Of a stretch of DNA of 64,000 bases, positions 47,215-64,000 are shown one piece after another. Source of the stretch: Agreia pratensis (GTDB lineage Bacteria > Actinomycetota > Actinomycetes > Actinomycetales > Microbacteriaceae); NCBI RefSeq assembly GCF_900177685.1, contig NZ_FXAY01000003.1, positions 124,001 through 188,000 on the forward strand, written 5' to 3'. The translations under genes and the position numbers were made by a program. The first letter of the stretch is position 1. The number at the start of each line of letters is the position of its first letter. A model generated the notes under the pieces. It was not told the origin of the DNA and made no database searches. It saw only the letters and a program-made list of their open reading frames with translations.

Positions 47215-47321
47215 GGGCATCGCTCCGTCGAAGCCCGCTCACAAGACAGAATCAGTGCGATTTCTCCACCGATGGTGTCGTCGGCAGGTTCAGGGGCGTG
47301 TGCACGAGGTCTACTCGTTGA

Positions 47322-50243
47322 ATGCACCGACGTCACTCGTTTCTCTCTGACGAGCCGCCGCCCCCGCGGTCACCGAGCGGCGTCGATACAGTCTCAGATC
47401 TCGACGAGGTCCTCGTCGTTCCTCGGCGGTCGGATCCGCCTCCGAAGACGCCCTTTCCGATCATCGGATCGCTCGCGCCGTTGGGGGCGGCCGTCGTGGT
47501 CTGGTTTGTTCTGCACTCGCCTCTCGCGCTCGTCTTCGCCCTGCTCTCGCCGGTGATGGCGGTGGCATCTCTCCTCGACGGTCGGCTCACTGCTCGACGT
47601 GCCAGGCGACGAGACGATGTCGATCTGGAGCGGCGCAAGCGTGCTTTCGTTGATCGCGTAGCGACCTTCCACGCGCACGAGATCGCACTGTTGAGGCGGC
47701 TCGCGCCCTCGGCCCGGTCGGTTCTCGGGCGCACCTCCAATCCGTTCACGGCGACCTCTGCGGGGGACGTGGCGATCTGCCTCGGTACCGGACAGGGACG
47801 GAGCGGACTGAGGCTGGAGGGCGGTTCCGACGATGATGACGATTCGCGACGTCTGCGTTCTGTGGCTCGTCGGTTGGTGGACGCCCCGGTGCTGGCACCG
47901 TCGCCTGTTCGCATCGCTGTCGTCGGGGCGCCGACGCTCGCGAATGCCATCGCCCGAGGCTACGTCGTGCAGTTCGCCGCGGCCGTATCGCCCCGCGCGG
48001 TGAGATTTCTGGCGGGCAGTGCGGGGCGAAACTCGAGTCCCGGGTCATGGACATGGGCGCACTCCTTGCCCCATTTCGGAGATGATGATGTGTCGGTCGG
48101 ATCACTCGATGCCGCCCGCCGCCCCCTCTGCGCGACATTTATCGTGGTTGCGGACTCGATCGACATCGTTCCGGCGGAAGCCGATATCGTCGTCGCCGCT
48201 GATTCGGTTGCGAAGGTCACGGTGCTTCGGCATCCTCGGTTCTCGACCCCGTTCGAGATCGAGGGCGAGTTCGTATCGGTACTCGAGGCAGAGGAATTCG
48301 GCAGACGACTAGGCCAGCTGACAGGCGAGACCGACGAGACGCACTTCGAACTGCCATCGCGTGTGTCTGCGGCTGAGGTCGAGGCGCTCATCGGCACGGG
48401 TGTCGGGGGAGGCCCCTCACCGGAAGGACTCAGCGCGGCCATCGGGATAGGGGAGCATGGTGACGTCGTCAGCCTCGATCTCGTGGAGCAGGGTCCACAC
48501 GCGGTCGTCGCCGGTACAACGGGAAGCGGGAAGAGCGAGCTCCTCGTAACGTGGGTCGCGGCCCTCGCTCGCGCGTACGAATCGACCGCCTTCACTGTTC
48601 TGCTCGTGGACTTCAAAGGCGGCGCCGCGTTCGATCCGCTGACGGGCCTCGAGCAGTGCGTCGGACTGATCACCGACCTCGACCCCGGAGGCGCCGAGCG
48701 TGCCCTGTCGAGCCTCAGAGCCGAGGTCCGATGGAGAGAGCGAGCGCTTCGCGAAGCGTCCGTCCGCGACATCTCGGATCCGCGCCTCGGCGCACGAATG
48801 CCCCGTCTGCTCATCGTCGTCGATGAGTTCGCCGCGATGCTGTCCGAGTTTCCTCAGCTGCACGACGTGTTCGCAGATATCGCCGCGCGAGGTCGCTCGC
48901 TCGGAATGCACCTCGTGCTCTGTACCCAGAGACCTGCAGGGGTCGTCAAGGATTCGCTGCTCGCAAACTGTGAGCTCAGGCTGTCTCTGCGTGTGAACAA
49001 CGCGGCCGATTCGACCGCCATCATCGGCAGCCCAGCGGCCTCGATGCTGGCTCCAGAGCAACGTGGTCGCTGCCTCGTCTCTGTGGGTGGGCGGCCGCCC
49101 GTGGTCGTGCAGGTGGCTCATACGGATGCCGCTGATCTCGTCGGTCAAAGGCCGACGACACCTCCGTCTCTGCGTGCTCCCTGGTTGCCCGCTCTTGCCT
49201 CTGAGATCCTCCTCGACGATGTTCCGAGACCCCCCTCTGGAATCGTTCTCGGCCTGCTCGATCTGCCTGAGGAGCAACGCCAACCGCCCGCTTGCTACGA
49301 CCCGGCCGAACAGGGGCCATTGCTGATCCTCGGTTCGTCGCGTTCCGGAAAATCGACGCTACTCTCGACCATCGCTCAGCAGTCATCCACGGTGGTCTTC
49401 GTCGGCCCGGGCATCGAGGAGGCGTGGGACACGGTGCAAGAGGTGGTCGAGCTGTGCAGGGAGAGACAGCGTGGGGGAGTGTCTCACCCGCCGATTCTCG
49501 TCTTCGTCGACGACCTCGACTCCGTGGTGCGCCGCTTCGAGGCTGAATATCAGAGCGCGCTGGTCTCCGCGCTTGCCACGATCCTCCGAGATGGCCCGCC
49601 CTGCGGTGTCACACTCATTGCGACGGCTCAACGTCTTGCCGCACCGCTGACGATGCTCGCACCGCTCTTTCCGGAGCGCATTCATCTCAGATTCGCGAGT
49701 CGCCAAGAGTACATCGTGGCCGAAGGCATACCTTCAGATCACGATGCGGGCCTTCCTTCCGGGGCAGGGCACTGGCGGGGAGCACGGCTTCAGGTCGCGC
49801 TGCCTTCCGAGGGCGCGGCGACACGGGCGTCGACGCCATCGCGCCACGTGCGCATCCGGGGCGGATCGCTGCCGCCCACGCTGCTCGTCGTCACCTCTCG
49901 ACCCACACGGTTTCTCGATCCGCAGCACGACGCTCTCCCTGAGACCGTCGCGCTGATCGACGTCGGAGACCGCGCGGCGCTCTCGGCATTCGCGGCGACG
50001 TGCGGCGTGCCGACATGGCTGGTCGGCACGCCCGATGCCTGGATGGCCGCCTGGAGCACCTTCTCGAGTCTGAGGAGCCGCTTCCCCGTCTATCTCGACG
50101 GGTGTTCACTCGGTGATCTCCGATCACTCACCCGTCGCCGAGATCTTCCGCCGCCGTTCGATCACGGGCGACCGCCACGGTGGCTGCTCGCACCCGATGA
50201 CACGATCGTGCGATTCGAGCCCGCGGAGGTTTCCCACCGGTGA
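47322..50243 (+). CDS. EccC/EssC-like FtsK/SpoIIIE-family ATPase
   Basis: 973 residues. Two adjacent transmembrane helices (about 47-65 and 69-86), a connecting domain, then two FtsK-type ATPase domains. Domain 1 is complete: Walker A GTTGSGKS (398-405), DFKGG (430-434) and Walker B LLIVVDE (496-502). Domain 2 has Walker A GSSRSGKS (671-678) and a Walker B ILVFVDDLD (725-733). Mycobacterial EccC has three ATPase domains and about 1300 residues, so this is a shortened motor. EccC-type proteins energise type VII secretion of Esx/WXG100 proteins; no such substrate, EccB, EccD or EccE is encoded nearby. Confidence 0.9.
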   Translation: MHRRHSFLSDEPPPPRSPSGVDTVSDLDEVLVVPRRSDPPPKTPFPIIGSLAPLGAAVVVWFVLHSPLALVFALLSPVMAVASLLDGRLTARRARRRDDVDLERRKRAFVDRVATFHAHEIALLRRLAPSARSVLGRTSNPFTATSAGDVAICLGTGQGRSGLRLEGGSDDDDDSRRLRSVARRLVDAPVLAPSPVRIAVVGAPTLANAIARGYVVQFAAAVSPRAVRFLAGSAGRNSSPGSWTWAHSLPHFGDDDVSVGSLDAARRPLCATFIVVADSIDIVPAEADIVVAADSVAKVTVLRHPRFSTPFEIEGEFVSVLEAEEFGRRLGQLTGETDETHFELPSRVSAAEVEALIGTGVGGGPSPEGLSAAIGIGEHGDVVSLDLVEQGPHAVVAGTTGSGKSELLVTWVAALARAYESTAFTVLLVDFKGGAAFDPLTGLEQCVGLITDLDPGGAERALSSLRAEVRWRERALREASVRDISDPRLGARMPRLLIVVDEFAAMLSEFPQLHDVFADIAARGRSLGMHLVLCTQRPAGVVKDSLLANCELRLSLRVNNAADSTAIIGSPAASMLAPEQRGRCLVSVGGRPPVVVQVAHTDAADLVGQRPTTPPSLRAPWLPALASEILLDDVPRPPSGIVLGLLDLPEEQRQPPACYDPAEQGPLLILGSSRSGKSTLLSTIAQQSSTVVFVGPGIEEAWDTVQEVVELCRERQRGGVSHPPILVFVDDLDSVVRRFEAEYQSALVSALATILRDGPPCGVTLIATAQRLAAPLTMLAPLFPERIHLRFASRQEYIVAEGIPSDHDAGLPSGAGHWRGARLQVALPSEGAATRASTPSRHVRIRGGSLPPTLLVVTSRPTRFLDPQHDALPETVALIDVGDRAALSAFAATCGVPTWLVGTPDAWMAAWSTFSSLRSRFPVYLDGCSLGDLRSLTRRRDLPPPFDHGRPPRWLLAPDDTIVRFEPAEVSHR

Positions 50244-50253
50244 CGACGCAGAT

Positions 50254-50281
50254 TGCAGCGGATTCCGTGAAGTTTATGTTT
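50254..50281 (+). promoter_or_regulatory. Weak candidate promoter of the polyamine transporter
   Basis: TTGCAG and TATGTT are separated by 16 bp in the 136-bp gap after the EccC-like gene. The -10 matches at four of six positions, the -35 at three. Confidence 0.25.
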
Positions 50282-50379
50282 CGGTATCGATGCTTTCGTC
50301 TTATTTCGCCCCACAGACGCGTGTGCTGTGCCACTATCAGACCACCCTGATGACCGTAGAGTTCGGAGACCCACCCGAC

Positions 50380-51606
50380 ATGAACGCGCCACTGCCCCGT
50401 GACCCGCTGATCCAGCAGACGATCGCCTACGCGCGATCCATGCAGAGGGCGAAGCAGATCGCGTTGTCCCGACGATCCGTGCTCGCAGGGGCGGGAATGG
50501 GCCTCGGTGCTCTGGCATTGGCCGCCTGCTCGACCGGGCCCCGCCCCGCTCCGAAGGCAGCGGTCGATTCGTCGGCATCCGACAAATCGCTTGTCTGGGA
50601 CAACTGGCCGGCCTACATAGATGAGGACGACGACGGCAATTACCCCACGCTGATCGGCTTCGAAGAGCAGACCGGCATCAGCGTGACCTACAACGTGGCC
50701 GTCGATGACAACAATTCGTACTACGGCAAGGTCAAGGATCAGCTTGCCCTGGGCCAGGACATCGGCGCAGACGCCGTTTGTCTCACCGAGTGGATGGTGT
50801 CTCGTCTGATTCGCAAAGGGTACGTGCAAGAACTCGACGCGGCCAACATCCCGAACAAGAAGAACGTGCTCCCGTCGCTCGCGAATCCCGACTTCGATCC
50901 CGGCCGCAATCGTTCCTTGCCCTGGCAGGGCGGATTCGCGGGCATCTGCTGGAACAAGGAGCGTCTACCGAAGGGTCTTCGATCTGTCGAAGATCTCTGG
51001 AAGCCGGAGCTCAAGGGTCGTGTCGGCGTTCTCAGCGAGATGCGGGACACCATTGGAGTGATCATGCAGTCGCAAGGCGTCGACGTCTCGAGCAACTGGA
51101 CCGAGGGCCAATTCATGGATGCCGTGGACCTGTTCCGCAAGCAGGTCGACGACGGGCAGGTGCGCAACATCAAGGGCAACGCTTATCTGAACGACCTGCA
51201 GAACGAGGACACCCTGGCCGCCATCTGCTGGTCGGGCGATATCACGCTGATCAATGCTGAGGCGGGTGACAAGTGGGAGTTCATCCTCCCCGACTCGGGA
51301 GGAACTCTCTGGAACGATACCTTCGTGGTTCCCATGGGGTCGACGCGCAAGGCGAATGCGGAAGCCCTGATGAACTACTACTACGAGCCGGAGGTCGCCG
51401 CCGAGGTCGCAGCGTGGGTCAACTACATCACGCCCGTCGTCGGCGCTCGGGAAGCCATGGAGTCCATCGACCCCGAACTGGCGAACAATCAGCTGATCTT
51501 TCCCGACGAGAAGACCCTCGAACAAGCGCACGTGTTCCGAACATTGACAGCAGAGGAAGAGAAGACCTTGGGCACCGAATTTCAGAAAGTGTTGTTGGGC
51601 ATCTGA
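50380..51606 (+). CDS. potD: Spermidine/putrescine ABC transporter substrate-binding lipoprotein (PotD-like)
   Basis: 408 residues from ATG 50380, preceded by GGAGA. A twin-arginine signal (SRRSVLAGAGMGLGALALAAC) ends in a lipobox with Cys near 47, so it is probably a Tat-exported lipoprotein. The mature protein starts with the PotD/PotF-like VWDNWPAYIDED and contains YNVAVDDNNSYYGKVKDQL and AICWSGDITLIN. The binding pocket acid residues expected for polyamines seem present, but specificity is inferred from family. Its stop overlaps potA by one base (TGATG). Confidence 0.9.
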   Translation: MNAPLPRDPLIQQTIAYARSMQRAKQIALSRRSVLAGAGMGLGALALAACSTGPRPAPKAAVDSSASDKSLVWDNWPAYIDEDDDGNYPTLIGFEEQTGISVTYNVAVDDNNSYYGKVKDQLALGQDIGADAVCLTEWMVSRLIRKGYVQELDAANIPNKKNVLPSLANPDFDPGRNRSLPWQGGFAGICWNKERLPKGLRSVEDLWKPELKGRVGVLSEMRDTIGVIMQSQGVDVSSNWTEGQFMDAVDLFRKQVDDGQVRNIKGNAYLNDLQNEDTLAAICWSGDITLINAEAGDKWEFILPDSGGTLWNDTFVVPMGSTRKANAEALMNYYYEPEVAAEVAAWVNYITPVVGAREAMESIDPELANNQLIFPDEKTLEQAHVFRTLTAEEEKTLGTEFQKVLLGI

Positions 51607-52808
51607 TGAAGACGATGAGCACATTCGCCGAGGCCGGCGCCGACCTCGAGTTCGTCGATATCAGCAAGAGATTTCCGGGCTTCACAGCAATCGAGAATCT
51701 CAATCTGACGATCCCGGCCGGATCGTTCTTCGCCCTACTCGGACCGTCTGGTTGCGGTAAGACGACGACGCTGCGGCTCGTCGCGGGGCTCGAGGAACCG
51801 TCTGCGGGGCGCATCCTCATCGGAGGAAACGACGTCACGAACACGAAGTCCTTCCAACGTCCGGTGAACACGGTCTTCCAGTCGTATGCCCTGTTCCCGC
51901 ACATGACGATTCTCGAGAACGTCGCCTTCGGGCTTCGTCGGCGAAAGATCGACGATCCGCTGGGCAAGGCTCACGAAGCGCTGCGGCTTGTCGAGCTCGA
52001 TCATCTCGCGGCTCGTCGGCCCGCGCAGCTATCGGGGGGCCAGCAGCAGCGTGTGGCGCTCGCGCGTGCAATCGTGAATCGCCCCGCCCTTCTGCTGCTC
52101 GACGAGCCCCTCGGTGCACTCGACCTGAAACTGCGTCGCCAGATGCAACTCGAGCTGAAGAGCATCCAGACCGAGATCGGGCTGACCTTTCTTCATGTCA
52201 CCCACGATCAGGAGGAAGCCATGACGATGGCTGACATCGTGGCTGTCATGAATAAGGGTGAAATCGAGCAGATGGGCGCTCCTGAGCAGCTCTATGAGCT
52301 TCCCCGAACGGCGTTCGTCGCCAACTTCCTCGGCCAGTCGAACCTCTTCACCGGCCAGGTCACCGACTCGGGCGCCGATTCCATCACCGTCGATGTGGCG
52401 GGCAGGGGCATCGTGGTGCCTCGCACCCGAGCACAGCGCCATGCGGGCGAGGTGACCATCGGCGTGAGGCCCGAGAAGCTGCTGCTACACACGGAAGCGC
52501 CGACGACCGGCGCAGGGATCAACATTCTTGGACCAGGGCGTGTCACCGACGTGTCGTTCTCCGGAGTCAGCACCTCGTATATCGTTCAGATTCCCGGGTT
52601 GGGGGCCGTGACCGTCTTCGCGCAGAACATGGTCTTCGGGCCGGTCGTGAACGAGGGTGCCGAGGTCTGGGTCAGCTGGACGGTGGATCACGGTTTCGGT
52701 CTGGAAGACGAGCCGACGACCGGTTCCCGATTCCCTGCCGATGCGTCGACGAGCGCCATTGCAATCCAGCGCAGGGCCGCGCTCGAGACCGAACTAGAGG
52801 GGGCATAG
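51606..52808 (+). CDS. potA: Polyamine ABC transporter ATP-binding protein (PotA-like)
   Basis: 400 residues from ATG 51606. Walker A GPSGCGKTT, Q-loop VFQSYALFPHMT, signature LSGGQQQRVALARA, Walker B LLLLDEPLGALD and H-loop LHVTHDQEEA are intact. A C-terminal TOBE domain (about 290-375) matches spermidine/putrescine and Fe3+ importers. It powers the PotB/PotC permease pair encoded next. Confidence 0.94.
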   Translation: MKTMSTFAEAGADLEFVDISKRFPGFTAIENLNLTIPAGSFFALLGPSGCGKTTTLRLVAGLEEPSAGRILIGGNDVTNTKSFQRPVNTVFQSYALFPHMTILENVAFGLRRRKIDDPLGKAHEALRLVELDHLAARRPAQLSGGQQQRVALARAIVNRPALLLLDEPLGALDLKLRRQMQLELKSIQTEIGLTFLHVTHDQEEAMTMADIVAVMNKGEIEQMGAPEQLYELPRTAFVANFLGQSNLFTGQVTDSGADSITVDVAGRGIVVPRTRAQRHAGEVTIGVRPEKLLLHTEAPTTGAGINILGPGRVTDVSFSGVSTSYIVQIPGLGAVTVFAQNMVFGPVVNEGAEVWVSWTVDHGFGLEDEPTTGSRFPADASTSAIAIQRRAALETELEGA

Positions 52809-52811
52809 CTC

Positions 52812-53726
52812 ATGGCCTTCGCCGCATTCGCGTCGAGTGACGCGGCCGTGACGAAACCTCCCCGGCGAAAGTCCACGATCGCTCTGGTCCTGCTCCTTCC
52901 CGGCATCCTCTACATGGTGCTGTTCTTTCTCACGCCGCTCATCTCGCTCGTCATCACGTCGTTCCAAGCCGAACTCCCTGGAGGTGACATCGGCGACTAC
53001 GTTCCAGGCCTGCAATGGCAGAACTATGTCGAGAGTGCTAGCGAGTACCTTCCGCATATCCTGCGCGCGTTCGGCTACGCCCTTGTGGCCACGGTTTTCG
53101 CCCTGATCATCAGTTATCCGATCGCCTACTTCATCGGAGTGAAAGCCCGACGGTGGCCCCTGCTGCAGAGCATGATGCTCACGCTTGTCATCGCACCGTT
53201 CTTCATCAGCTTCCTTCTGCGCACTCTCGCATGGAAGCAGATCCTCTCCGACGAGTCGCCCGTGGTGCAGGCGCTCAAAGCGGTGGCCATCCTGCCCGCC
53301 GACGGGCATCTCACGGGCACGCCGTTCGCGGTGATCTTCGGGCTCACGTACAACTTCATCCCGTTCATGACCCTGCCTCTCTATACGACTCTCGAGCGAC
53401 TCGACACTCGTTTCCTCGAGGCGGGCAGCGATCTCTATGCGAATCCCGCCACCACGTTTCTGAAGATCACGGTTCCGCTCTCGATGCCGGGCATCATCTC
53501 GGGCACACTGCTCACGTTCATCCCGGCCGCGGGTGACTACATCAACGCGAGCCGCGACTTTCTGGGCTCGAGCAAGACCGCCATGCTCGGAAACGCGATC
53601 GAGGCCAACTTCCTCACGCTGCAGAACTATCCCGTGGCAGCGGCACTCTCCATCATCCTGATGGCCGTGATTCTGGTGCTTGTCGGCGTCTATGTGCGCC
53701 GCAGCGGAACGGAGGACCTGCTGTGA
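52812..53726 (+). CDS. potB: Polyamine ABC transporter permease (PotB-like)
   Basis: 304 residues with six transmembrane helices and the permease EAA loop LEAGSDLYANPATTFLKITV in the penultimate cytoplasmic loop. It starts 3 bp after potA and its stop overlaps potC by 4 bp. The DYV and RDFL loop residues match PotB-type permeases. Confidence 0.93.
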   Translation: MAFAAFASSDAAVTKPPRRKSTIALVLLLPGILYMVLFFLTPLISLVITSFQAELPGGDIGDYVPGLQWQNYVESASEYLPHILRAFGYALVATVFALIISYPIAYFIGVKARRWPLLQSMMLTLVIAPFFISFLLRTLAWKQILSDESPVVQALKAVAILPADGHLTGTPFAVIFGLTYNFIPFMTLPLYTTLERLDTRFLEAGSDLYANPATTFLKITVPLSMPGIISGTLLTFIPAAGDYINASRDFLGSSKTAMLGNAIEANFLTLQNYPVAAALSIILMAVILVLVGVYVRRSGTEDLL

Positions 53727-54583
53727 CCGCCCTACGCTCTGACCGAAAGCGCCCGCCGGCGAAGCCCGAAACCGCGCGTCCCTCTCGGAGAAGGCTCACG
53801 GGCCTCGGACTTCCCATCTATGTTGCGCTGGCCCTCGTATTCCTGCTTATTCCGATCGCCTACACCTTCGTGTTCTCGTTCAATGACTCGGTGAAGTCCA
53901 ACATCGCGTGGAGAGGGTTCACCTTCGAGAAGTGGCTCACCGTGTGCAACGAACCCGGACTCTGCGAGGCGTTCGGCAACAGCATTCTCGTGGGCGTCGT
54001 GGCGACCGTTCTCGCGACGGCACTCGGCACAGCGATCGCGATAGCACTCGTGCGATACCGCTTCAGGTTCCGCTCCAGCATCAGCCTGCTGCTGTTTCTG
54101 CCGATGGCGACTCCAGAGGTCGTTCTGGGTGCAGGGCTCGCGGCGCAGTTCCTTGCACTCGGCACGCAGAAAGGCATCGTCACGGTGATCCTCGCTCACA
54201 CGATGTTCTGCATCAGCTTCGTCGTCGTGACAGTGAAGGCCCGGGTCGCCAGCCTCGACCCCGCCCTCGAAGAGGCCGGCCGAGACCTCTACGGTTCGGC
54301 TGCCCAGGTCTTCTGGCGCATCACCTTTCCTCTGCTGCTGCCCGGCATCCTGGCTGCGGCACTGCTCTCGTTCGCGCTCAGTTTCGATGATTTCATCATC
54401 ACGAACTTCAACTCGGGTGCCGTCGACACCTTCCCGAAATTCATCTACATCGCAGCGGCGCGGGGTATTCCCGCCGAGGCGAACGTGATCGCCTCCGCCG
54501 TCTTCATCCTCGCGATCCTCATCGTGGTGGTAGCGCAGGTCAGTCGATCTGCCCGACAGAAGAAGCTGGCGAAGCTGAACTAG
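53723..54583 (+). CDS. potC: Polyamine ABC transporter permease (PotC-like)
   Basis: 286 residues, six helices, EAA loop LEEAGRDLYGSAAQVFWRIT. GTG start overlapping potB. The terminal helix ends with a basic tail (RSARQKKLAKLN). Together with PotD, A and B it completes an importer. It converges with the asparaginase gene after 18 bp; no hairpin-T terminator lies between. Confidence 0.93.
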   Translation: MTALRSDRKRPPAKPETARPSRRRLTGLGLPIYVALALVFLLIPIAYTFVFSFNDSVKSNIAWRGFTFEKWLTVCNEPGLCEAFGNSILVGVVATVLATALGTAIAIALVRYRFRFRSSISLLLFLPMATPEVVLGAGLAAQFLALGTQKGIVTVILAHTMFCISFVVVTVKARVASLDPALEEAGRDLYGSAAQVFWRITFPLLLPGILAAALLSFALSFDDFIITNFNSGAVDTFPKFIYIAAARGIPAEANVIASAVFILAILIVVVAQVSRSARQKKLAKLN

Positions 54584-54601: not shown

Positions 54602-55606
54602 TCAGATGGTGGGTCGGATACTGCCGACGGGCTGGCCGCCGCCGAGAACGGCGAGATCGAAGGTACTCACCAGTGCATCGACATCTTTGCGCTCCACGGC
54701 GCCGGCCCGAACGAGAAGCTCGAGTGCCACGATCGCTGCTGCGCGCAGGCTGCCGTCGAGGATCTTGAGGGCGACGGCCACTCCGGAGCGAGTGGACATG
54801 ACCATGACTCCCTCCGCACCGAGTTTTGCGAAGAGATGGAGCTCGTCGATGACGAGGGTATTCTGCTCCTTCGGGGAATCGACGGCCCAGCCGTTGGCGA
54901 GTACCGAGTCGACGAGCCATTCGGCATCCGGTGTCTCGCCCTGGGCGATGCGTGAGACGCCTCTGGCAAGAGCCCGGAGCGAGATCGCGTGCACGGGCGC
55001 ACCGCAGCCGTCTACTCCGGAGGCCGCGATCTTCTCTCCGGTCTGCTCTTCGATGAGGTCGCGAATGCGAAGCTGCAGAGGATGCGCCGGGTCGAGATAG
55101 TCGGCCGTGCTCCAGCCCTGCTGAACACAGGCGAGAAGCATCGCCGCATGCTTGCCAGAGCAGTTCATGTAGACACGCTGTGCGGAGCCGCCCTCTCGGA
55201 CGACAGCGTCGCGGGCGGAGCGGTCGCCCGGCCAGTCGGCGGGGCACCCGAGTGCGCTCTCGTCGAGCGCGGCCAGCTGAAGAATCTGGCGCACGACGTC
55301 GACGTGCTCGGGCGTTCCGCCGTGGCTCGCCATCGAGAGCGCGGTCTGCAGGGGAGTGAGCTGCACCCCGGCCTCGCGGATCGCCAGTGCCTGGAAGGGC
55401 TTCAGGCTGGAGCGCGGGAACACGGGAGCTGCCGCATCGCCGAGTTCTTCGAGGACCGCACCTGTTGCATCGAGCACAACCGCGGCACCCACATGGCGGG
55501 ACTCGATGAACCCGCTGCGCTCGAGGACGGCCAGCTCGACGGCCCCTTCGATGGAGAAGGTGCCGGGCGAAGCGGACGGTGAAGCGGACGTCGCCGCGGA
55601 GGTCAT
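54602..55606 (-). CDS. L-asparaginase II family protein (Rhizobium-type)
   Basis: 334 residues of the Asparaginase_II family, unrelated to E. coli AnsA/AnsB. The residues of the Rhizobium etli ReAV active site have counterparts: Ser-x-x-Lys in RSSLKPFQ (about 66-69), Ser in MASHGG, Cys149 and Lys152 in MNCSGKHA and Cys201 in VDGCGAP. It hydrolyses asparagine to aspartate and ammonia. It starts on the stop of gabT (ATGA), so it is co-translated with an aminotransferase of GABA metabolism. Confidence 0.88.
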   Translation of the reverse strand: MTSAATSASPSASPGTFSIEGAVELAVLERSGFIESRHVGAAVVLDATGAVLEELGDAAAPVFPRSSLKPFQALAIREAGVQLTPLQTALSMASHGGTPEHVDVVRQILQLAALDESALGCPADWPGDRSARDAVVREGGSAQRVYMNCSGKHAAMLLACVQQGWSTADYLDPAHPLQLRIRDLIEEQTGEKIAASGVDGCGAPVHAISLRALARGVSRIAQGETPDAEWLVDSVLANGWAVDSPKEQNTLVIDELHLFAKLGAEGVMVMSTRSGVAVALKILDGSLRAAAIVALELLVRAGAVERKDVDALVSTFDLAVLGGGQPVGSIRPTI

Positions 55607-56958
55607 CGCAGCGTCGCCATGGCGTCGTCGATGACTCCCAGCGCGTCGGTCAGAAGCGCGTCGGAGATAGCGAGGCTCGGAAGGAATCGCACGATGTTGC
55701 CATATGTTCCGGCATTCAGAACGAGGACTCCCTGCGACGCGGCGTAGGCCACGATCGCGTCGACGGCCTTCGGGTTGGGCTCCTTGGTGGTGGCACCCGT
55801 GCCTGGCTGTACGAGCTCGATGGCGATCATTGCACCGATGCCCCGGATGTCACCGATGATGTCGTACTTGGACGCCAACTCCTCGAGGCCAGCGACCAGC
55901 GTCTGCTCGATTCGAGTCGCCTCAGCGAGCAGGTCGTCGTTCTCGATCTGCTCGAAGACGGCCACGGCGGCGGCGGCGGCCACCGGGTTTCCGCCGAAGG
56001 TGCCCCCCAATCCGCCGGGCAGGGCGGAGTCCATGATCTCTGCGCGTCCGGTGACTCCCGCGAGGGGAAGCCCGCCCGCGATGCCCTTGGCGCTCAGAAC
56101 GAGGTCGGGGACCAGGCCGAAGTGCTCGCTGGCGAAGTATGCGCCGGTGCGGGCCATGCCGCTCTGGATCTCGTCGGCGATGAAGACGATGCCGTTCTCG
56201 GTGCACCACTGCTGCAGTGCAGGCAGGTAGCCGTCGGCCGGTACGACGAACCCGCCCTCGCCCTGGATCGGCTCGACGACGAGGCACGCCAGGTCGTAGG
56301 CACCCACGGTCTTCTCGAGGTATCCGATGGTTCGGGCCGCAGCCTCGGCGCCCGTGAGGCCGTCGTGGTACGGGTAGGAGTTGGGCGCGCGATAGACATC
56401 GCCGGCGAAGGGGCCGAAGCCGGTGGAGTACGGCGCCGCTTTGAAGTTCATCGCCATGGTCAGGTTGGTCCGACCGTGGTAAGCGTGCTCGAGTACCGCC
56501 ACACCCGTGCGGCGCGTGTACTTGCGCGCGATCTTGACAGCGTTCTCGACGGCCTCGGCTCCGGAGTTGACGAGAACCGTCTTCTTGGGGAAGTCGCCCG
56601 GCGTGTGCTGGGCGAGAAGCTCGGCGACCCGCACGTACTCCTCATAGGGCGTGACGGTGAACAGTGTGTGAGTGACCTTGCCGAGCTGGGCGGCAGCGGC
56701 CTCGATGACGCGAGCCGAGGTGTGACCGACGGTCGTGACTCCGATACCCGCGCCGAGGTCGATGAACTGGTTGCCGTCGACGTCGACCAGGATCGCGCCG
56801 TTGGCCCTCTCGATGTAGATCGGGAGTGCCGTGCCGACACCCACCGGCACAACAGCCAGTCGTCGCTCGTGCAGTGCGATGCTCTGCGGACCGGGGATGG
56901 CCGTGACGACCTTCCGCTCCTGGGCGACGGTGTACGAGGAATTCAGGGTGTCTGTCAT
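55603..56958 (-). CDS. gabT: 4-aminobutyrate--2-oxoglutarate transaminase
   Basis: 451 residues. PLP enzyme with the dinucleotide-like DLGAGIGVTTVGHT, VNSGAEAVENAVKIAR, the Asp segment FIADEIQSGMARTG and the Schiff-base Lys in SAKGIAGGLPLAG, the GabT signature. It converts GABA to succinate semialdehyde, the step after diamine oxidation. gabD is not in the window. Stop overlaps the asparaginase start. Divergent from the OsmC gene with a 52-bp gap. Confidence 0.92.
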   Translation of the reverse strand: MTDTLNSSYTVAQERKVVTAIPGPQSIALHERRLAVVPVGVGTALPIYIERANGAILVDVDGNQFIDLGAGIGVTTVGHTSARVIEAAAAQLGKVTHTLFTVTPYEEYVRVAELLAQHTPGDFPKKTVLVNSGAEAVENAVKIARKYTRRTGVAVLEHAYHGRTNLTMAMNFKAAPYSTGFGPFAGDVYRAPNSYPYHDGLTGAEAAARTIGYLEKTVGAYDLACLVVEPIQGEGGFVVPADGYLPALQQWCTENGIVFIADEIQSGMARTGAYFASEHFGLVPDLVLSAKGIAGGLPLAGVTGRAEIMDSALPGGLGGTFGGNPVAAAAAVAVFEQIENDDLLAEATRIEQTLVAGLEELASKYDIIGDIRGIGAMIAIELVQPGTGATTKEPNPKAVDAIVAYAASQGVLVLNAGTYGNIVRFLPSLAISDALLTDALGVIDDAMATLR

Positions 56959-57010: not shown

Positions 57011-57475
57011 GTGAAAGCGCAGCATTCCTACACCGTGACCGTAGAGTGGCTTGGAAATCGGGGCACGGGCACCAGCGGGTACCGAGACTATGGGCGCAGC
57101 CACCTCGTGACGGCATCGGGAAAACACCCCATCGAGGCAAGCGCGGACCGCACATTCCACGGTGACACCGACCGGTGGAACCCCGAGGAGATGCTGCTGG
57201 CCGCGCTGAGCCAGTGCCACATGCTCTCGTATCTTCATGTGGCTGTTCTGCACGGCGTCGTGGTCACGGGTTACCGGGACGAGGCGACAGGCACCCTCGC
57301 GCTCGACCGCACGGGGGGAGGGCGCTTCACCTCGGCAACGCTCCATCCGAAGGTCGAATTGGCCGACTCCTCGCAGGCCGAGCTGGCCCAATCGCTGCAT
57401 GGCGAGGCGAGCGAAAAGTGCTTCATCGCGAACTCGGTCAACTTTCCCGTGCTGCACGAACCTCTGGTCGGATGA
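57011..57475 (+). CDS. OsmC family peroxidase-like protein
   Basis: 154 residues. The two redox Cys of OsmC/Ohr proteins are present: LAALSQCHMLSYLH (Cys near 69) and SEKCFIANSVNFPV (Cys near 137). The pattern SYRDYGR-like N terminus and HxxLSYL segment resemble the YhfA/SACOL1771 subgroup rather than Ohr itself. It reduces organic hydroperoxides or acts on a thiol substrate. GTG start without SD. Its stop overlaps the phosphopantetheinyl-transferase start. Confidence 0.88.
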   Translation: MKAQHSYTVTVEWLGNRGTGTSGYRDYGRSHLVTASGKHPIEASADRTFHGDTDRWNPEEMLLAALSQCHMLSYLHVAVLHGVVVTGYRDEATGTLALDRTGGGRFTSATLHPKVELADSSQAELAQSLHGEASEKCFIANSVNFPVLHEPLVG

Positions 57476-58056
57476 CCGACAGGCACGTGGGCGTGACCCG
57501 TCGTGCGGCGCCCGCAACCGACGCGATCGAGCAGGCCGTCGCATCGGCTGCCGGCGTCATGCCGTCTCAGGTCATCATCGAGTCGCGCTGCGACGAGTGC
57601 GGAAGGCCTCACGGCAAGCCGCGCGTGGTCTTTCCACGGGCGCACGACGGCTCGGAGATCGTGGTGAGCAAGAGCTCTGCCGCCGGGTGGGTTGTGACCG
57701 CCGTGTCGATCGATGCCCGAGGCGACGATCTCGGAGTCGACATCGAGTCGAGCGTGCAGATGTCGAGAGCACGAGTCGATGAAGCTGCGTTCTCTGATGC
57801 GGAGCGCGATCTCATCGACGACGAGGATGCAGGGGGCCGCGCTCTGCTGCGCACCCGGCTCTGGTCACAAAAGGAGGCGTATCTCAAAGCGACCGGTCGT
57901 GGTCTTCGCATCGACCTGACGACCGTCGATCTCGCATCCGGCCTCGCGCCCGACGCGGTGATCGTGGAGGTGCCGCTCGCAGACCCGACGCTGGTTCTCA
58001 CGGTTGCCATGCTCGGACAAGACCCCGTCGTCGTCGAGCTGCTCGACCGCCCGTAG
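57472..58056 (+). CDS. 4'-phosphopantetheinyl transferase (Sfp superfamily)
   Basis: 194 residues from ATG 57472. N-terminal CDECGRPHGKP (40-50), SKSSAAGWV in place of the usual SxSH, LGVDIE (87-92) with the Mg-binding Asp and Glu, and WSQKEAYLKATGRGL (131-145). It moves phosphopantetheine from CoA to the Ser of carrier domains. The peptide synthetase at 59408-63349 has one such Ser and lies 1.35 kb away; it is the obvious client, an inference. 4-bp overlap with the OsmC gene. Confidence 0.9.
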   Translation: MTDRHVGVTRRAAPATDAIEQAVASAAGVMPSQVIIESRCDECGRPHGKPRVVFPRAHDGSEIVVSKSSAAGWVVTAVSIDARGDDLGVDIESSVQMSRARVDEAAFSDAERDLIDDEDAGGRALLRTRLWSQKEAYLKATGRGLRIDLTTVDLASGLAPDAVIVEVPLADPTLVLTVAMLGQDPVVVELLDRP

Positions 58057-58065
58057 CAGGCGTGT

Positions 58066-59400
58066 TCAGCGAGGAAGAACCGGCAGCCGCTCTGAGAAGA
58101 GCCAACTCTCGAAGAGCGCGTCGAGGTCGACGCTGCTGCGGTCGCGGGCGTGCAGGTAGAAGCCCTCTGTCGTCACATTGCCGTACCGGTTCTCGGTCGC
58201 CCACGAACTCAGAAGTTCGAAGAAGGCGTCGTCGCCGAGAGTGACGCGCAGAGCGTGGAGCGTGAGCGCGCCCCGCTTATAGACCCGGTCGTCGAACATC
58301 TTCTCGGGCCCGGGATCGCCGATCGTCAGGTCTTGGGGGAGGTGTGAGAGACGCGCCCAGTGCTGATGCGCAAGTCGGTGCACGGTCGGGCCGCCGGATT
58401 CCTCCGACCAGAGCCATTCGGCGTAGCAGGCGAAGCCCTCGTGCAGCCAGATGTCCTTCCAGGTCGTGGCGGTGACGCTGTTGCCGAACCAGGAGTGCGC
58501 GAGTTCGTGGGCGATGAGCCGCTCGGAGCCCCCCAGGCCGTCGATGTGGTTCCTGCCGAAGACGGCGAAGCCGTGGGCTTCGACCGGGATCTCGAGGTCG
58601 TCATCGGCCACGACGACCGAGTACTCGCCGAAGGGGTAGGGACCGAACGAGCGCTCGAAGAGAGCCAGCATCTTCTCCTGGTCGGCGAAGTCCTTCTGCG
58701 CTCGTGCCATGACGGAGGCGGGTGCGAGCACGGTCTGCGGAACGGGCACACGGGAGAGCACCAGCTCTCGGTATACGCCGATCTGGATGCTGGCCAGGTA
58801 GGTGGCCATCGGCTCGACGGTCTCGAACGTCCAGGTCGTGCGGCTCGCCCGTCGGACCTTCGATACGAGTCGCCCGTTCGCGAGGACCGAGTACGACGAC
58901 TCGGCCGCGATGCGGATGCGGAACGAGGCCTTGTCGCTGGGGTGGTCGTTGCACGGGAACCAGCTGGGTGCGCCGCTGGGTTGAGAGGCGACGAGCACGC
59001 CCTCGCTGAGCTCTTCCCAGCCGAGTTCGCCCCAGGGGCTGCGAACGGGCCGCGGCGATCCTCCGTAGCGCACCGTGACGACGAACTCCTGGCCGGCCGG
59101 GATGGTCTTCGCCGGTGTGATGGTCAGTTTCCTCGCGGATTCGACCAGTTTCGAGGGGGCCACACCGTCGATGGTGACACGCGTCGCTACGAGCCCGCAG
59201 AAATCGACGCTGAAGCGGGTCAACTCGTGGGTGGCCGTGGCTGTGATGACAGCGGTTGCGGCCAGACGGTTGTTCGCGACCCTGTAGTCGAGATCGAGGT
59301 CGTACGACGAGACGGTGTAGCCGCCGTTGCCGCTGGTGGGGACGTAGCTGTCACCGATGGTCAGTGAACCGTGACTGGGGTGCGAAGGAGTGTGCGGCAT
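58066..59400 (-). CDS. M1 family metalloaminopeptidase
   Basis: 444 residues. Zinc site HELAH (298-302) with Glu321 in WLHEGFACYAEW; the N-terminal beta-domain (about 20-200) and the general base region EIPVEAHGFAVFG replace GAMEN. No signal peptide. The catalytic Tyr region RVYKRGALTLHAL is present. It is shorter than PepN (about 870 aa), lacking the C-terminal helical domain. It follows the Pls-type synthetase after 7 bp on the same strand, so they are probably one operon; M1 aminopeptidases degrade epsilon-poly-lysine in producer streptomycetes, from memory. Confidence 0.9.
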   Translation of the reverse strand: MPHTPSHPSHGSLTIGDSYVPTSGNGGYTVSSYDLDLDYRVANNRLAATAVITATATHELTRFSVDFCGLVATRVTIDGVAPSKLVESARKLTITPAKTIPAGQEFVVTVRYGGSPRPVRSPWGELGWEELSEGVLVASQPSGAPSWFPCNDHPSDKASFRIRIAAESSYSVLANGRLVSKVRRASRTTWTFETVEPMATYLASIQIGVYRELVLSRVPVPQTVLAPASVMARAQKDFADQEKMLALFERSFGPYPFGEYSVVVADDDLEIPVEAHGFAVFGRNHIDGLGGSERLIAHELAHSWFGNSVTATTWKDIWLHEGFACYAEWLWSEESGGPTVHRLAHQHWARLSHLPQDLTIGDPGPEKMFDDRVYKRGALTLHALRVTLGDDAFFELLSSWATENRYGNVTTEGFYLHARDRSSVDLDALFESWLFSERLPVLPR

Positions 59401-59407
59401 CTGTCGC

Positions 59408-62400
59408 TCAAGTATTCCACGGAGCGATGGGGTTGCCGGTCCAGCGGCTGGCTGCTGGTACGATCTCGCCGCGCATCACCAGCGACGCCGGCCCGACAGT
59501 AGCGCCGTCGTCGATTCGTGCTGCGGGGAGGATCACGCTGTGCGGGCCAAGGGTTGCTCCGGATGCGATCACGACGGTGTCGAGCGACATCACGCGGTCG
59601 TGGAAGAGATGCGTTTGAACCACGCAGCCGCGGTTGACGCTCGATCCCGCGCCGAGTTCGACGAGGTCGGCTTCTGGTAGCCAGTAGGTCTCGATCCACG
59701 ATCCGCGGCCGATGCGCGCGCCGAGCGACGCCAGCCACAGGGCGAGGGCGGGCGTTCCGGTTGCCGCCCGCGCAAACCAGGGAGCCGCCACCATCTCGAC
59801 AAAGGTGTCCGACACCTCGTTGCGCCAGATGAAAGACGACCAGAGTGGATGCTCCGTGGCCCGGATTCTGCCCACGATCGTCCACTTTGCGACGGTCGTG
59901 ACGGCTGCCGCGACGGCACCAGCAGCGAGCATCACGGGCCCGGAGAGAACGATCACCCAGCCGAGGCCGAACGAGGTGAGGAGGAACTCGAGCGCAAGCA
60001 GAACGCCGAGCCCGATGCCGACGGTGATCATCACCGGCACGAGACGGCAGAGCTCCCACAGCGCGCGCGCCACTCGCAATGAGGCGGGAGGCCGGTAGGT
60101 GCGGCTCTCATCGAACTCGGCGACCGCCCGGCGCAGACGTACCGGCGGGTTGCCGAGCCACGATGACCCCGATTTGGCCTTGCGCGGAGTCGCCGACAGC
60201 ACGGCGACCAACCCGTTCTTCGGAACCGTTCGCCCAGGCCCGGTCATGCCGCTGTTTCCGAGGAACGCTCGACGGCCGATCTTGGCCTCGTCGATACGCA
60301 TCCAGCCGCCGCCGAGTTCGTACGACGCGACCATTGTGTCGTCGGCGAGGAAGGCATGGTCGCCGATCGTGGTCATCGCGGGGAGCAGAAGCACCGTCGA
60401 CGCTTCGACATTCGTTCCGACCTTTGCTCCGAGCAGTCTCAGCCAGACGGGTGTGAAGAGGCTCGCATAGAGAGGGAACAGCATCGTGCGCGACAGATCG
60501 AGCAGGCGTTCGGTCGCCCAGACCTGCCATCCGACGCGGGAGCGCACTGGGTGGTGCCCGGGAGCAAGACCGATGCCCAGTAGTCGAACGCTGACCACGA
60601 CGAGCAGCGCGAAGACGACACCTGCAGCGACGGTCGCGAGGGGCACCGACGCCAGGGCCCTCAACGCGAGCTCGCCGAGAGATCCCGAGCCGTGCACCAT
60701 GGCGCCGGTGACCAGTGCACCGACCGCCAGGGCGGCGAGAGGCAGAAGAGACAGCAGCACCGAACCGGCGCCGTACGCGGCGACCCAGGCGGATGCTCGC
60801 GGCGGCCGTTCGGAGGGCCAACCCGGGCGGGCCTTGCCCATCCGCTCGGCCGGAGACCCCGCCCATCGTTCGCCGCCCGGAACCCGGCCGGACACGCTGG
60901 AACCCGCGGCGATCTCGGCGCCACGGCCGACCCTGGCGCCGGGCAGAAGCGTGCTTCGCGCGCCGATCGTCGCATCCGCCCCGACCGAGACCGTGCCGAT
61001 TCGCAACACGTCTCCGTCGAGCCAGTAGCCGGAGAGGTCGACCTCGGGTTCGATCGCGACGCGTGCTCCGAGTTTGAGCATGCCTGTGACCGGGGGAAGG
61101 GAGTGCAGGTCGACGCCCTCGCCGATGGTGGCTCCGAGAGCGCGCGCGTAGTAGGCGATCCAGGGTGCGCCGGCGAGGCTGGCCGCACCCACCAGTGCGG
61201 CGACCTGCTCGGCCATCCAGAGACGCACGTGAACGTGACCTCCGCGCGGATACGCACCGGGCTTGACGCCGCGAAGCAGCAGGCGCGCTGCCACCACCGA
61301 GACTCCCATGCGCCCGAAGGGGGTCACGAGAAGCACGAACCCCGCGAGCAGCCACCACCATGAAACGGCCGGGAGCCAGTCGATGCCGGCGAAGGCGAGA
61401 AGCAGTGCATTCGCGGCGAGGAGATAGACACTCCAGCGCGCGCCGACGATGATATGCAGCGGAATTCCGAGCAGGGTCTGGGCCCACTGGGTGGAGCGCG
61501 GGGTAGGTGTCACAATGCGTGGCTCCGCGGCCACGCTCGGTGCCCGAGAGTCGAGTTCGGTCGCCAGCGCTCCGATGCGCGGGTGGTCGTAGAGATCAGA
61601 CACGCGCGCCTCGGGAAAGCGCGCACGGATCATGCTCGTGAGCTGTGCCGCGGCAAGACTGCCGCCTCCGACCGCGAAGAAATCGTCGGACGCGTCGGTG
61701 ATGGATGTGCCGAGTACCTCTGTCCAGAGTCCGGCCAGCCATCCAGCCGTTCCGCCGAGTTCGGCTGCCGCGCCGGCGGGCGCTCCCGCTGCGGATGCGA
61801 GGGGCCAGGGGAGTGCGGACCGGTCGACTTTTCCAGAGATCCGGGTCGGTATGGACTCGACGATGGCGAGCACGGGAACCAGGGCGGCGGGCAGCTCTTG
61901 CCTGAGCCGGGCCACGGCGGCGGCGCGGTCGAAATCGGATTCGGCCATCGCGGTGTCGAGCGCAAGATAGCCGACGAGAACCTGGTTGCCCGCGGCTGTG
62001 GTCTGCACGACGGCGGCGGCACCGGCCACACCCGGCAGCGCCTGCAGCGCGGCTTCGATCTCGCCGAGTTCGATGCGCCGTCCGCCGAGCTTGATCTGAT
62101 CGTCGGCCCTGCCCTGAAAGACGAGTCCTTCGCGCTCGAAGCGCACCAGGTCGCCGCTTCGGTAGGCGCGCTCCCACCCGAGACTGGGCATCGGTGCGTA
62201 CTTCTCCGCGTCCTTGGCCGGATCGAGGTAGCGGGCAAGCCCGACTCCGCCGATGATCAGCTCACCGATCTCGCCCTCTGCCACGGGAATCCCCGACGCG
62301 TCGACGACGGCCAGATCCCAGCCGTCGAGGGGGAGCCCGATACGAATCGGTGTGGTGCCGTCGAGAAGCGCACCACAGGCAACGACGGTCGCCTCGGTCG

Positions 62401-63349
62401 GGCCATAGGTGTTCCAGAGCTCTCGGGCAGGTGTCGCCAGACGTGCGGCGAGCTCGGGTGGGCACGCCTCGCCGCCGAAGATCAGCAGGCGCACATTCTC
62501 GAGTGACTCTGCCGGCCAGAGACCCGCGAGGGTGGGAACTGTCGAGACGACAGTGATGCCGTGCGCGATGAGCCACGGACCCAGGTCTGCGCCCGAGCGC
62601 ACCAGAGACCGCGGCGCAGGCACGAGACAGGCCCCGTGTCTCCAAGCGAGCCACATCTCTTCGCACGACGCATCGAACGCGACCGAGAGCCCGGCGAGCA
62701 CGCGGTCGGTCTGGTCGAGCGGCTCGGACTGCAGGAACATGCGCGCCTCGGCATCGACGAACGCGGCCGCCGATCGGTGGGTGACGGCCACGCCCTTGGG
62801 CACGCCCGTCGAGCCCGAGGTGAAGATGATCCAGGCATCGTCGTCGACGGTCGGCGCACCGAGCGTGGTTATGGTTCCTGTGCCCGTGCGCACGGGTTCG
62901 AGCCCCACGCTCTCTCGGCTATCAAGGCGCCGGGTTCCGTCGGATGAGACGCGCGGCACGATGGTGCCGTCCGCGCCGATGTGACCCACGACATCCGCCT
63001 CGCCGAAGACCAGTTCGGCCCTCTCCTCCGGGTCGTCGGCGTCGACGGGCACATACGCGGCGCCGAGCACCAGCACGGCCAGGATCGAGACGTAGAGGGT
63101 TCGGCTGCCCGAGGGAATGCGAATTCCCACGCGGTCGCCGCGGCGCACGCCTGCCACCGACAACGAGACCGCTGCTTGTGACACCAATCGCATCAGTTCG
63201 CGATAACTGACCGATCCGTTTGCGTCGGCGAGGGCGGCAGACTCCGGATGCCTGTCGGCCGTGTCTCGCAGAATGTCGACGAGGGTGCGCGGGACCGGGG
63301 TGCGCTCGCTGCCCAGGAGGAGTCCGGGTTCAGCGGGGGAGTCGGTCAC
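59408..63349 (-). CDS. Pls/PosA-type single-module non-ribosomal peptide synthetase
   Basis: 1313 residues from GTG 63349, which has AGGAG 7 nt upstream. Adenylation domain about 20-515: FTSGSTGVPKG (176-186), NTYGPTE (313-319), YRSGD (396-400), Lys507 in SGKVDR. Carrier domain about 535-605 with Ser564 in GGGSL. Then about 700 residues of membrane segments and two left-handed beta-helix hexapeptide regions, as in epsilon-poly-lysine synthetase; no condensation domain. Aligning to GrsA gives specificity residues D-A-E-S-I-G-T-V-V-K, close to the lysine code D-A-E-S-I-G-S-V-C-K recalled for BacB. Product proposed: poly-lysine-like. Confidence 0.9.
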   Translation of the reverse strand: MTDSPAEPGLLLGSERTPVPRTLVDILRDTADRHPESAALADANGSVSYRELMRLVSQAAVSLSVAGVRRGDRVGIRIPSGSRTLYVSILAVLVLGAAYVPVDADDPEERAELVFGEADVVGHIGADGTIVPRVSSDGTRRLDSRESVGLEPVRTGTGTITTLGAPTVDDDAWIIFTSGSTGVPKGVAVTHRSAAAFVDAEARMFLQSEPLDQTDRVLAGLSVAFDASCEEMWLAWRHGACLVPAPRSLVRSGADLGPWLIAHGITVVSTVPTLAGLWPAESLENVRLLIFGGEACPPELAARLATPARELWNTYGPTEATVVACGALLDGTTPIRIGLPLDGWDLAVVDASGIPVAEGEIGELIIGGVGLARYLDPAKDAEKYAPMPSLGWERAYRSGDLVRFEREGLVFQGRADDQIKLGGRRIELGEIEAALQALPGVAGAAAVVQTTAAGNQVLVGYLALDTAMAESDFDRAAAVARLRQELPAALVPVLAIVESIPTRISGKVDRSALPWPLASAAGAPAGAAAELGGTAGWLAGLWTEVLGTSITDASDDFFAVGGGSLAAAQLTSMIRARFPEARVSDLYDHPRIGALATELDSRAPSVAAEPRIVTPTPRSTQWAQTLLGIPLHIIVGARWSVYLLAANALLLAFAGIDWLPAVSWWWLLAGFVLLVTPFGRMGVSVVAARLLLRGVKPGAYPRGGHVHVRLWMAEQVAALVGAASLAGAPWIAYYARALGATIGEGVDLHSLPPVTGMLKLGARVAIEPEVDLSGYWLDGDVLRIGTVSVGADATIGARSTLLPGARVGRGAEIAAGSSVSGRVPGGERWAGSPAERMGKARPGWPSERPPRASAWVAAYGAGSVLLSLLPLAALAVGALVTGAMVHGSGSLGELALRALASVPLATVAAGVVFALLVVVSVRLLGIGLAPGHHPVRSRVGWQVWATERLLDLSRTMLFPLYASLFTPVWLRLLGAKVGTNVEASTVLLLPAMTTIGDHAFLADDTMVASYELGGGWMRIDEAKIGRRAFLGNSGMTGPGRTVPKNGLVAVLSATPRKAKSGSSWLGNPPVRLRRAVAEFDESRTYRPPASLRVARALWELCRLVPVMITVGIGLGVLLALEFLLTSFGLGWVIVLSGPVMLAAGAVAAAVTTVAKWTIVGRIRATEHPLWSSFIWRNEVSDTFVEMVAAPWFARAATGTPALALWLASLGARIGRGSWIETYWLPEADLVELGAGSSVNRGCVVQTHLFHDRVMSLDTVVIASGATLGPHSVILPAARIDDGATVGPASLVMRGEIVPAASRWTGNPIAPWNT

Positions 63350-63475
63350 GAAAGTCTCCTGGGTGTTCGAGCGCCGCGTGTCCACACAGCGATCGAACCG
63401 TAGGGTGTCGAGGTGGACGAGAGGTTAACGCGCTGGAGGGGAACGGATTCGACCCCCGTGCAGTTAGCTAGGACT
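63350..63475. promoter_or_regulatory. Divergent promoter region of the Pls-type synthetase and MFS exporter
   Basis: 126 bp between GTG 63349 (minus) and GTG 63476 (plus). TTAGCT ends 6 nt before GTG 63476, a weaker match to the leaderless pattern. No clear palindrome or -35 was identified. Confidence 0.3.
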
Positions 63476-64000
63476 GTGCCTACACCGCCCACCTCTGTTC
63501 TGCAGCGACTGGTTCTCATCGTCGCCGTCCTCTCCGCCTTCGTCGCGTTCCTCGACGGTACCGTGATCACGGTCGCCCTGCCCGCCATCACACGCGAATT
63601 GGGCGGCGGCCTCGTGACCCAGCAGTGGGTCATGGACGCCTACCTCATCACCCTCGGCTCCATCATCCTGCTCGCCGGCTCTCTCTCCGATGTCTTCGGT
63701 CGTAAGAAGGTGCTGTTCTGGGGCCTCGTGGGGTTCGGCGTCTCCTCGTTGATCTGTGCGATCGCTCCCACGTCCGGCGTGCTCATCGGCGCGCGAGCGG
63801 TTCAGGGTGTCGCCGGAGCACTGCTCGTGCCGAGCTCGCTCGCCCTCATCCTGTCGACGTTCTCCGGCCCTGCTCAGGCCAAAGCCATCGGGTCGTGGAC
63901 AGCCTGGACCAGCACGGCGTTCCTGGCGGGCCCGCTGATCGGCGGTCTCCTGGTCGACCTCGTCTCGTGGAGGCTCGTTTTCGCGATCAACGTCGTTCCG
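63476..64000 (+). CDS. MFS drug/antiporter family transporter (3' end outside window)
   Basis: 175 residues are visible to the window edge with no stop, from GTG 63476. Hand translation gives six hydrophobic segments and the DHA2-type (14-TM) motifs: AFLDGTVITVALPAI in TM1, LSDVFGRKKVL (motif A) between TM2 and TM3, and AWTSTAFLAGPLIGGLLVD (motif C) in TM5. Such proteins export drugs or natural products by proton antiport. Divergent from the Pls-type synthetase, it could export or give tolerance to its product; inference from position only. Confidence 0.88.
   Translation, partial: MPTPPTSVLQRLVLIVAVLSAFVAFLDGTVITVALPAITRELGGGLVTQQWVMDAYLITLGSIILLAGSLSDVFGRKKVLFWGLVGFGVSSLICAIAPTSGVLIGARAVQGVAGALLVPSSLALILSTFSGPAQAKAIGSWTAWTSTAFLAGPLIGGLLVDLVSWRLVFAINVVP

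Follow-up and report, generated by a model that had tools for sequence, protein, structure and literature searches.

A 64,000-nucleotide stretch of the Agreia pratensis genome (contig NZ_FXAY01000003.1, positions 124,001 to 188,000; hereafter the window) carries near its end a locus whose central gene very likely encodes a genuine, lysine-specific Pls, judging by its sequence. In all probability the locus is a pathway for making epsilon-poly-L-lysine, in which an adenylation (A) domain would activate L-lysine, a C-terminal region would polymerise it and an adjacent M1 metallopeptidase would trim the product, with an Sfp-type 4'-phosphopantetheinyl transferase (PPTase) priming the thiolation (T) domain. 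The analysis shows which domains are present, that the pocket is identical, how the genes are ordered, and that they are conserved and co-occur; the substrate, its linkage and polymerisation, co-transcription and the substrate of the peptidase we infer. Its parts are the following.

59408..63349, minus strand: predicted Pls-type epsilon-poly-L-lysine synthetase, 1313 aa (TIGR02353, 7WEW match; start inferred from GGAG)
61790..63289, minus strand: adenylation domain, code DAESIGTVVK (Pfam, PDB match, alignment)
61559..61741, minus strand: thiolation (PP-binding) domain with GGGS motif (PF00550, 41.9 bits, residues 549-609)
59426..61483, minus strand: predicted C-terminal polymerising region, transmembrane pair plus beta-helix three times over (C1-C3; TIGR02353 residues 635-1320, hydropathy, AlphaFold2)
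58066..59400, minus strand: two-domain M1 metallopeptidase, 444 aa, PldII-like by gene context (Pfam M1 domains, HELAH plus downstream Glu, fold)
57472..58056, plus strand, convergent: Sfp-type 4'-phosphopantetheinyl transferase, 194 aa (PF01648, 52 bits; motifs; co-occurrence with Pls)

The longest synthetase frame runs from 63385 to 59408 on the minus strand (1325 aa). We prefer the GTG start at 63349, which has GGAG six bases upstream and gives the 1313-aa protein. The M1 gene begins 7 bp after the Pls stop on the same strand, and its own stop lies 9 bp from that of the convergent PPTase. The original prediction for 57472-64000, a lysine-type Pls synthetase with a dedicated peptidase, PPTase and exporter, had placed every gene correctly, including the 7-bp gap, the convergent transferase and a divergent gene of the major facilitator superfamily (MFS).

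Architecture of the synthetase

The synthetase matches the TIGR02353 'Pls/PosA family' model with 736 bits (cut-off 423), and Pfam assigns AMP-binding, AMP-binding_C, PP-binding and hexapeptide repeats to it. No condensation domain was found by the Pfam scan, and in the combined Pfam and NCBIfam scans the protein is an A-T module lacking both condensation and thioesterase domains, as is characteristic of Pls. Its best match in the PDB is 7WEW, an epsilon-poly-L-lysine synthase that we take to come from Streptomyces albulus. This match is not due to chance, given an E-value of 1.1e-184; its score is 619 bits, and no other PDB chain exceeds 388.

Hydropathy reveals three regions fit for a helix pair, at about residues 645-700, 868-944 and 1108-1171; an extra hydrophobic peak at 94-117 sits within the A domain. 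The AlphaFold2 model of residues 620-1325 has a predicted local distance difference test score (pLDDT) of 76 and a predicted template modelling score of 0.82, with parts of low confidence, and comprises three repeats of paired long helices and beta-helix strands. Together, hydropathy and model give six transmembrane helices as three pairs separating C1-C3, the arrangement of Pls. A Foldseek search with the C-terminal model returned weak matches only, to hexapeptide/beta-helix acetyltransferases (best E-value 6.5e-5), with template modelling (TM) scores to the query of 0.18 or less among the 50 matches listed. The published PosA model has a like C-terminal plan, with which the present model agrees (PMC10522769). 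Pfam, hydropathy and AlphaFold2 thus bear out the predicted order of a single A-T module without condensation domain, followed by membrane and beta-helix regions.

A pocket identical to that of a lysine polymerase

By alignment, the ten-residue pocket reads DAESIGTVVK (residues 238, 239, 242, 281, 302, 304, 326, 334, 335 and 519 of the longest frame), exactly the code that the original prediction had derived by hand. The GrsA numbering was checked against 1AMU for the stretch 273-335; the remaining GrsA positions (235, 236/239 and 517) were placed by motif. All ten residues are identical in 7WEW, which supports the assignment as a lysine-type Pls, and 315 of 492 aligned A-domain residues (64%) are identical between the two proteins.

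The same pocket occurs in all 82 rows of an alignment of the window protein, 7WEW and 80 named relatives. The latter rank as the top 80 among 584 confirmed stretches, hence the closest relatives and not a random sample. A second set of 69 loci consists of 46 from the Microbacteriaceae (family loci, hand-picked from 164 places over the cut-off to spread across genera), 7 from the same genus and 16 from other taxa. With the window and 7WEW added, 68 of 71 rows have an identical pocket, and the three others (L186, L211 and L218) differ by V for I alone.

An M1 peptidase gene follows Pls

The M1 protein carries both Pfam M1 domains, and its HELAH motif and downstream Glu are intact, in keeping with an M1 fold with HExxH-x18-E. 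Its model (pLDDT 92) finds its best fold match in the two-domain M1 of D. radiodurans (6IFG, TM score 0.87), which is also the best match by sequence. A relative of this peptidase lies downstream of Pls on the same strand at all 80 named loci, and at 75 of them, as at 46/46 family loci, it lies no more than 400 bp from the Pls stop; the wider gaps are those of L070, L078, L079, L089 and L090. The further loci have an M1 gene downstream of Pls in 68 of 69 cases, the miss being L217. The predicted link between peptidase and Pls therefore holds, and the arrangement is kept across relatives.

Genome G949 holds two Pls copies: L218 has a neighbouring M1 gene, and for L217, the second copy, none was detected. 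In one large-genome genus, putatively Streptomyces, the M1 peptidases linked to Pls fall into two kinds, which carry at the exopeptidase-motif site either VENQT (L206-L210 and L212) or VEAQ (L211, L213-L216 and L218). They pair with Pls A domains that are about 78-93% and 66-69% identical to 7WEW, respectively.

An Sfp-type PPTase accompanies Pls in Microbacteriaceae

The PPTase retains the GVDxE and WxxKEAxxK motifs of the Sfp type (columns G88, D90, E92, W131, E135, A136 and K139). A convergent PPTase lies beyond the M1 gene at 40 of 46 family loci and all 7 same-genus loci; among the other family loci, L161, L168 and L179 have none in the stretch and L185, L186 and L190 have it elsewhere. 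A first measure, blastp with the window protein, had found it at 19 of the 80 named loci. In the A. pratensis genome itself, the carrier search, made with PF00550 only, returned two domains, one being the T domain of Pls and the other lying in a 92-aa frame, and PF00668 returned no condensation domain. Each of the 8 genus genomes has two PF01648 matches; the Pls locus supplies one, and the other falls in a short reading frame about the length of an AcpS.

An Sfp profile matches in 185 of 398 Microbacteriaceae genomes, namely in 163 of 165 with Pls and 22 of 233 without (Fisher p 5e-84). The Pls set comprises 164 genomes over the cut-off and one partial match, G267; those without an Sfp-profile match are G223 (82% complete) and G251, which has two PF01648 matches. 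The Fisher test ignores relatedness, a limit that a within-genus test answers in part: across the 23 genera holding both kinds of genome, the PPTase is present in 73/74 with Pls against 13/87 without (Cochran-Mantel-Haenszel z 9.8). Because PPTases from the vicinity of Pls were used to build the profile (A1), it may favour them, and an independent Pfam count served as a control. PF01648 was found in 112/165 genomes with Pls and 26/233 without, which we keep as the weaker measure because at its cut-off it misses PPTases found by the profile.

The co-occurrence, a carrier that is one of two PF00550 domains in the genome and the lack of a condensation domain there all support the dedicated PPTase of the original prediction. 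We found no earlier report of a link between Pls and a PPTase in the accessible literature. That this helper nearly always accompanies Pls in the Microbacteriaceae is a new point supported by the genome counts, and on this basis the native PPTase might usefully be co-expressed with such genes in a foreign host. Since no condensation domain and no other evident Sfp client were found in the genome, deleting the PPTase would be expected to disturb hardly anything but Pls.

Distribution and descent

A full-length member of the Pls family is present in 8/8 Agreia-group genomes and in 164 of 398 Microbacteriaceae genomes (41 of 85 genera), the nearest named genome being that of Agreia sp. VKM Ac-1783 (Pls at 96%). 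The best 80 named relatives include Rhodococcus, Nocardia, Mycobacterium, Arthrobacter, Kribbella and others. At an E-value of 1e-100 or better, the 7WEW A domain has relatives in 10 of 198 genomes sampled from the phylum; for the putative Streptomyces genus (around G558) the count is 167 of 392.

Pls genes were already known in the Microbacteriaceae, as homologues have been published from Microbacterium and others (Jiang 2021, PMC8117764) and epsilon-poly-L-lysine clusters from Agrococcus phoenicis, a member of the family, and two Microbacterium species (PMC12067966). The novelty that the original prediction claimed for the family was thus overstated; no report of production by a Microbacteriaceae member was found in the accessible literature.

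In an 89-row tree rooted on three 7WEW-like loci, with families assigned from record titles, the 26 Microbacteriaceae rows all fall into a single clade (support 0.998), whose sister comprises 11 rows, 10 of them labelled Arthrobacter-like. This placement points to vertical inheritance with many losses. A horizontal acquisition by the genus is not favoured, given this 26/26 grouping beside rows mostly from the Micrococcaceae.

Proposed mechanism and significance

In the proposed pathway, the Sfp-type PPTase would load the phosphopantetheine arm onto the T domain. The A domain would turn L-lysine into its adenylate and hand the thioester to the T domain. The C-terminal membrane region, with its three transmembrane pairs and beta-helix repeats, would then couple lysines through alpha-carboxyl and epsilon-amino groups, a reaction that would proceed without condensation or thioesterase domain, and would release or export the polymer. 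The M1 gene is probably transcribed together with pls, and its product may trim or destroy the polymer and so provide chain-length control and self-protection.

Epsilon-poly-L-lysine, a natural antimicrobial polymer, is produced commercially with Streptomyces as a food preservative, and the natural role of the polymer is poorly understood. With its compact pls-M1-PPTase unit in a 3.6-Mb genome, A. pratensis offers a clean place to test that role. We tentatively suggest that pls, M1 and sfp might form an old, mostly vertically inherited Microbacteriaceae unit, in which a private PPTase is kept almost only for Pls and tracks its gain and loss. With no exporter conserved and no evident export signal in the M1 protein, the polymer might then be a physiological polycation of small actinobacteria, not only a secreted antibiotic.

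Neighbouring genes

Two further genes flank the locus.

57011..57475, plus strand: OsmC-like gene, neighbour outside the pathway (PF02566)
63476..64000, plus strand: DHA2-type MFS transporter, neighbour, partial at the window end (TIGR00711, PF07690)

The OsmC-like gene and the PPTase gene share 4 bp, the ATGA at the PPTase start. OsmC relatives occur at 7/7 genus loci, yet at only 1/46 family loci. The MFS gene is divergent from Pls, has its likely start at 63476 and continues past the window end; the partial gene scores 115.8 bits with TIGR00711, below the cut-off of 230.2, and matches PF07690.

Further away, 50113-54583 on the plus strand encodes a solute-binding protein, an ATPase with a TOBE domain and two permeases, an ATP-binding cassette (ABC) transporter set that we presume to be of the polyamine type and PotABCD-like. 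An asparaginase II-type gene (54602-55606) and a gamma-aminobutyrate transaminase gene (55603-56958), both on the minus strand, lie next to this set. At 46255-50243 on the plus strand, an FHA/zinc-ribbon protein is followed by a 973-aa FtsK/SpoIIIE ATPase, which we assume to be part of a type VII secretion-like locus.

Alternative readings

Several observations weigh against an epsilon-poly-L-lysine pathway. The substrate is predicted from ten residues and from homology, and no product from Agreia was found in the accessible literature. C. variabile itself, and C. glutamicum carrying its gene, gave no detectable epsilon-poly-L-lysine (PMC8117764). The convergent PPTase is not universal: it occurs at 1 of the 16 loci from other taxa (L221), and any PPTase within 6 kb was found at only 31 of the 80 named loci. 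The window M1 shares only 42-44% identity with its counterparts at the closest 7WEW-like loci (L206-L210 and L212), with the motif VEAHG where those have VENQT, and by hydropathy it has no signal or membrane segment (no 19-residue stretch at or above 1.6).

One alternative is that the enzyme is PosA-type or another cationic homopolymer synthetase, producing a polymer of ornithine, diaminobutyrate, diaminopropionate or beta-lysine. The single family name TIGR02353 covers all such enzymes, and lysine and ornithine pockets are close, the PosA code having first been matched to a lysine module of bacitracin synthetase. However, position 2 of the pocket is Ala in lysine enzymes, Met for ornithine and Phe for diaminopropionate or diaminobutyrate (PMC10522769), and the window protein has Ala239 where PosA has Met218; a PosA-type product was rejected on the pocket. 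The epsilon-poly-beta-lysine code, given as DGESISVVNK, shares 6 of 10 positions with the window pocket and differs at the other 4. The PDB scores favour 7WEW, and the peptidase operon context of Pls is reported to be unlike that of three other synthetases (PMC8117764). The outcomes that the original prediction had named as telling against it, a pocket favouring a non-basic substrate or PosA-type closest relatives, were not observed, and we regard another product as highly unlikely. It is also unlikely that a lysine-activating Pls is silent or serves internally, with a storage or envelope polycation that M1 recycles in the cell in place of a secreted antibiotic. Such a role would fit the retention of Pls in every genus genome, the single clade expected of vertical descent, the lack of a conserved exporter and an M1 without hydrophobic segment. 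Against it, the Streptomyces Pls product is secreted, Pls has a membrane region of its own and its patchy presence fits an accessory trait. Moreover, 13 of 133 M1 relatives pass the hydropathy mark (8/80 named, 4/46 family and 1/7 genus), scanned from the profile start only and with most peaks not N-terminal. A five-gene cluster with a dedicated MFS exporter, as originally predicted, appears barely plausible. The gene is divergently placed, and 6 of the 7 same-genus loci have a close homologue next to Pls. Beyond the genus it is no steady neighbour: homologues occur near Pls at only 7/80 named, 4/46 family (27-71% identity) and 0/16 other loci, and at L161 the close homologue (71%) lies on the far side of M1, overlapping the OsmC gene. 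The dedicated exporter was rejected on this conservation, and a lysine-specific Pls pathway of synthetase, peptidase and PPTase is the reading we retain.

Comparison with known systems

The window Pls shares with 7WEW the A-T-6TM-C1-3 architecture, the identical pocket and a downstream M1 peptidase; it differs in its A domain, 64% identical, and in its Microbacteriaceae host. Whereas a convergent PPTase stands beside the window Pls, none was found in about 4 kb downstream of 13 putative Streptomyces loci. Adjacent aminopeptidase genes are also known from PldII (PMC9223678, PMC4361855), which is translationally coupled to pls, is said to lie outside the membrane and affects chain length (PMC9223678); in S. 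albulus, pls and pldII share 4 bp (PMC4361855). The window M1, compared with PldII by description, shows no export signal by hydropathy, although it may leave the cell by another route. Its fold is that of the D. radiodurans two-domain M1 (6A8Z/6IFG).

In C. variabile, pls forms an operon with a peptidase gene, and epsilon-poly-L-lysine was made on its expression in S. coelicolor (PMC8117764). This is the same gene pair in a different family, again compared by description. Clusters of the non-alpha poly-amino acid (NAPAA) type are reported in Subtercola and Herbiconiux (PMC10303725, PMC10011130) and in Micrococcaceae and Dermatophilaceae isolates (PMC11078813). Those of Agrococcus, Microbacterium, Subtercola and Herbiconiux belong to the same family as the present host and to the same antiSMASH cluster type; on the descriptions compared, the accessible texts do not mention a PPTase. 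The delta-poly-L-ornithine synthetase PosA, finally, has the same protein family and fold plan as the window Pls, from which it is set apart by Met at position 2, a single-gene operon and another substrate (PMC10522769).

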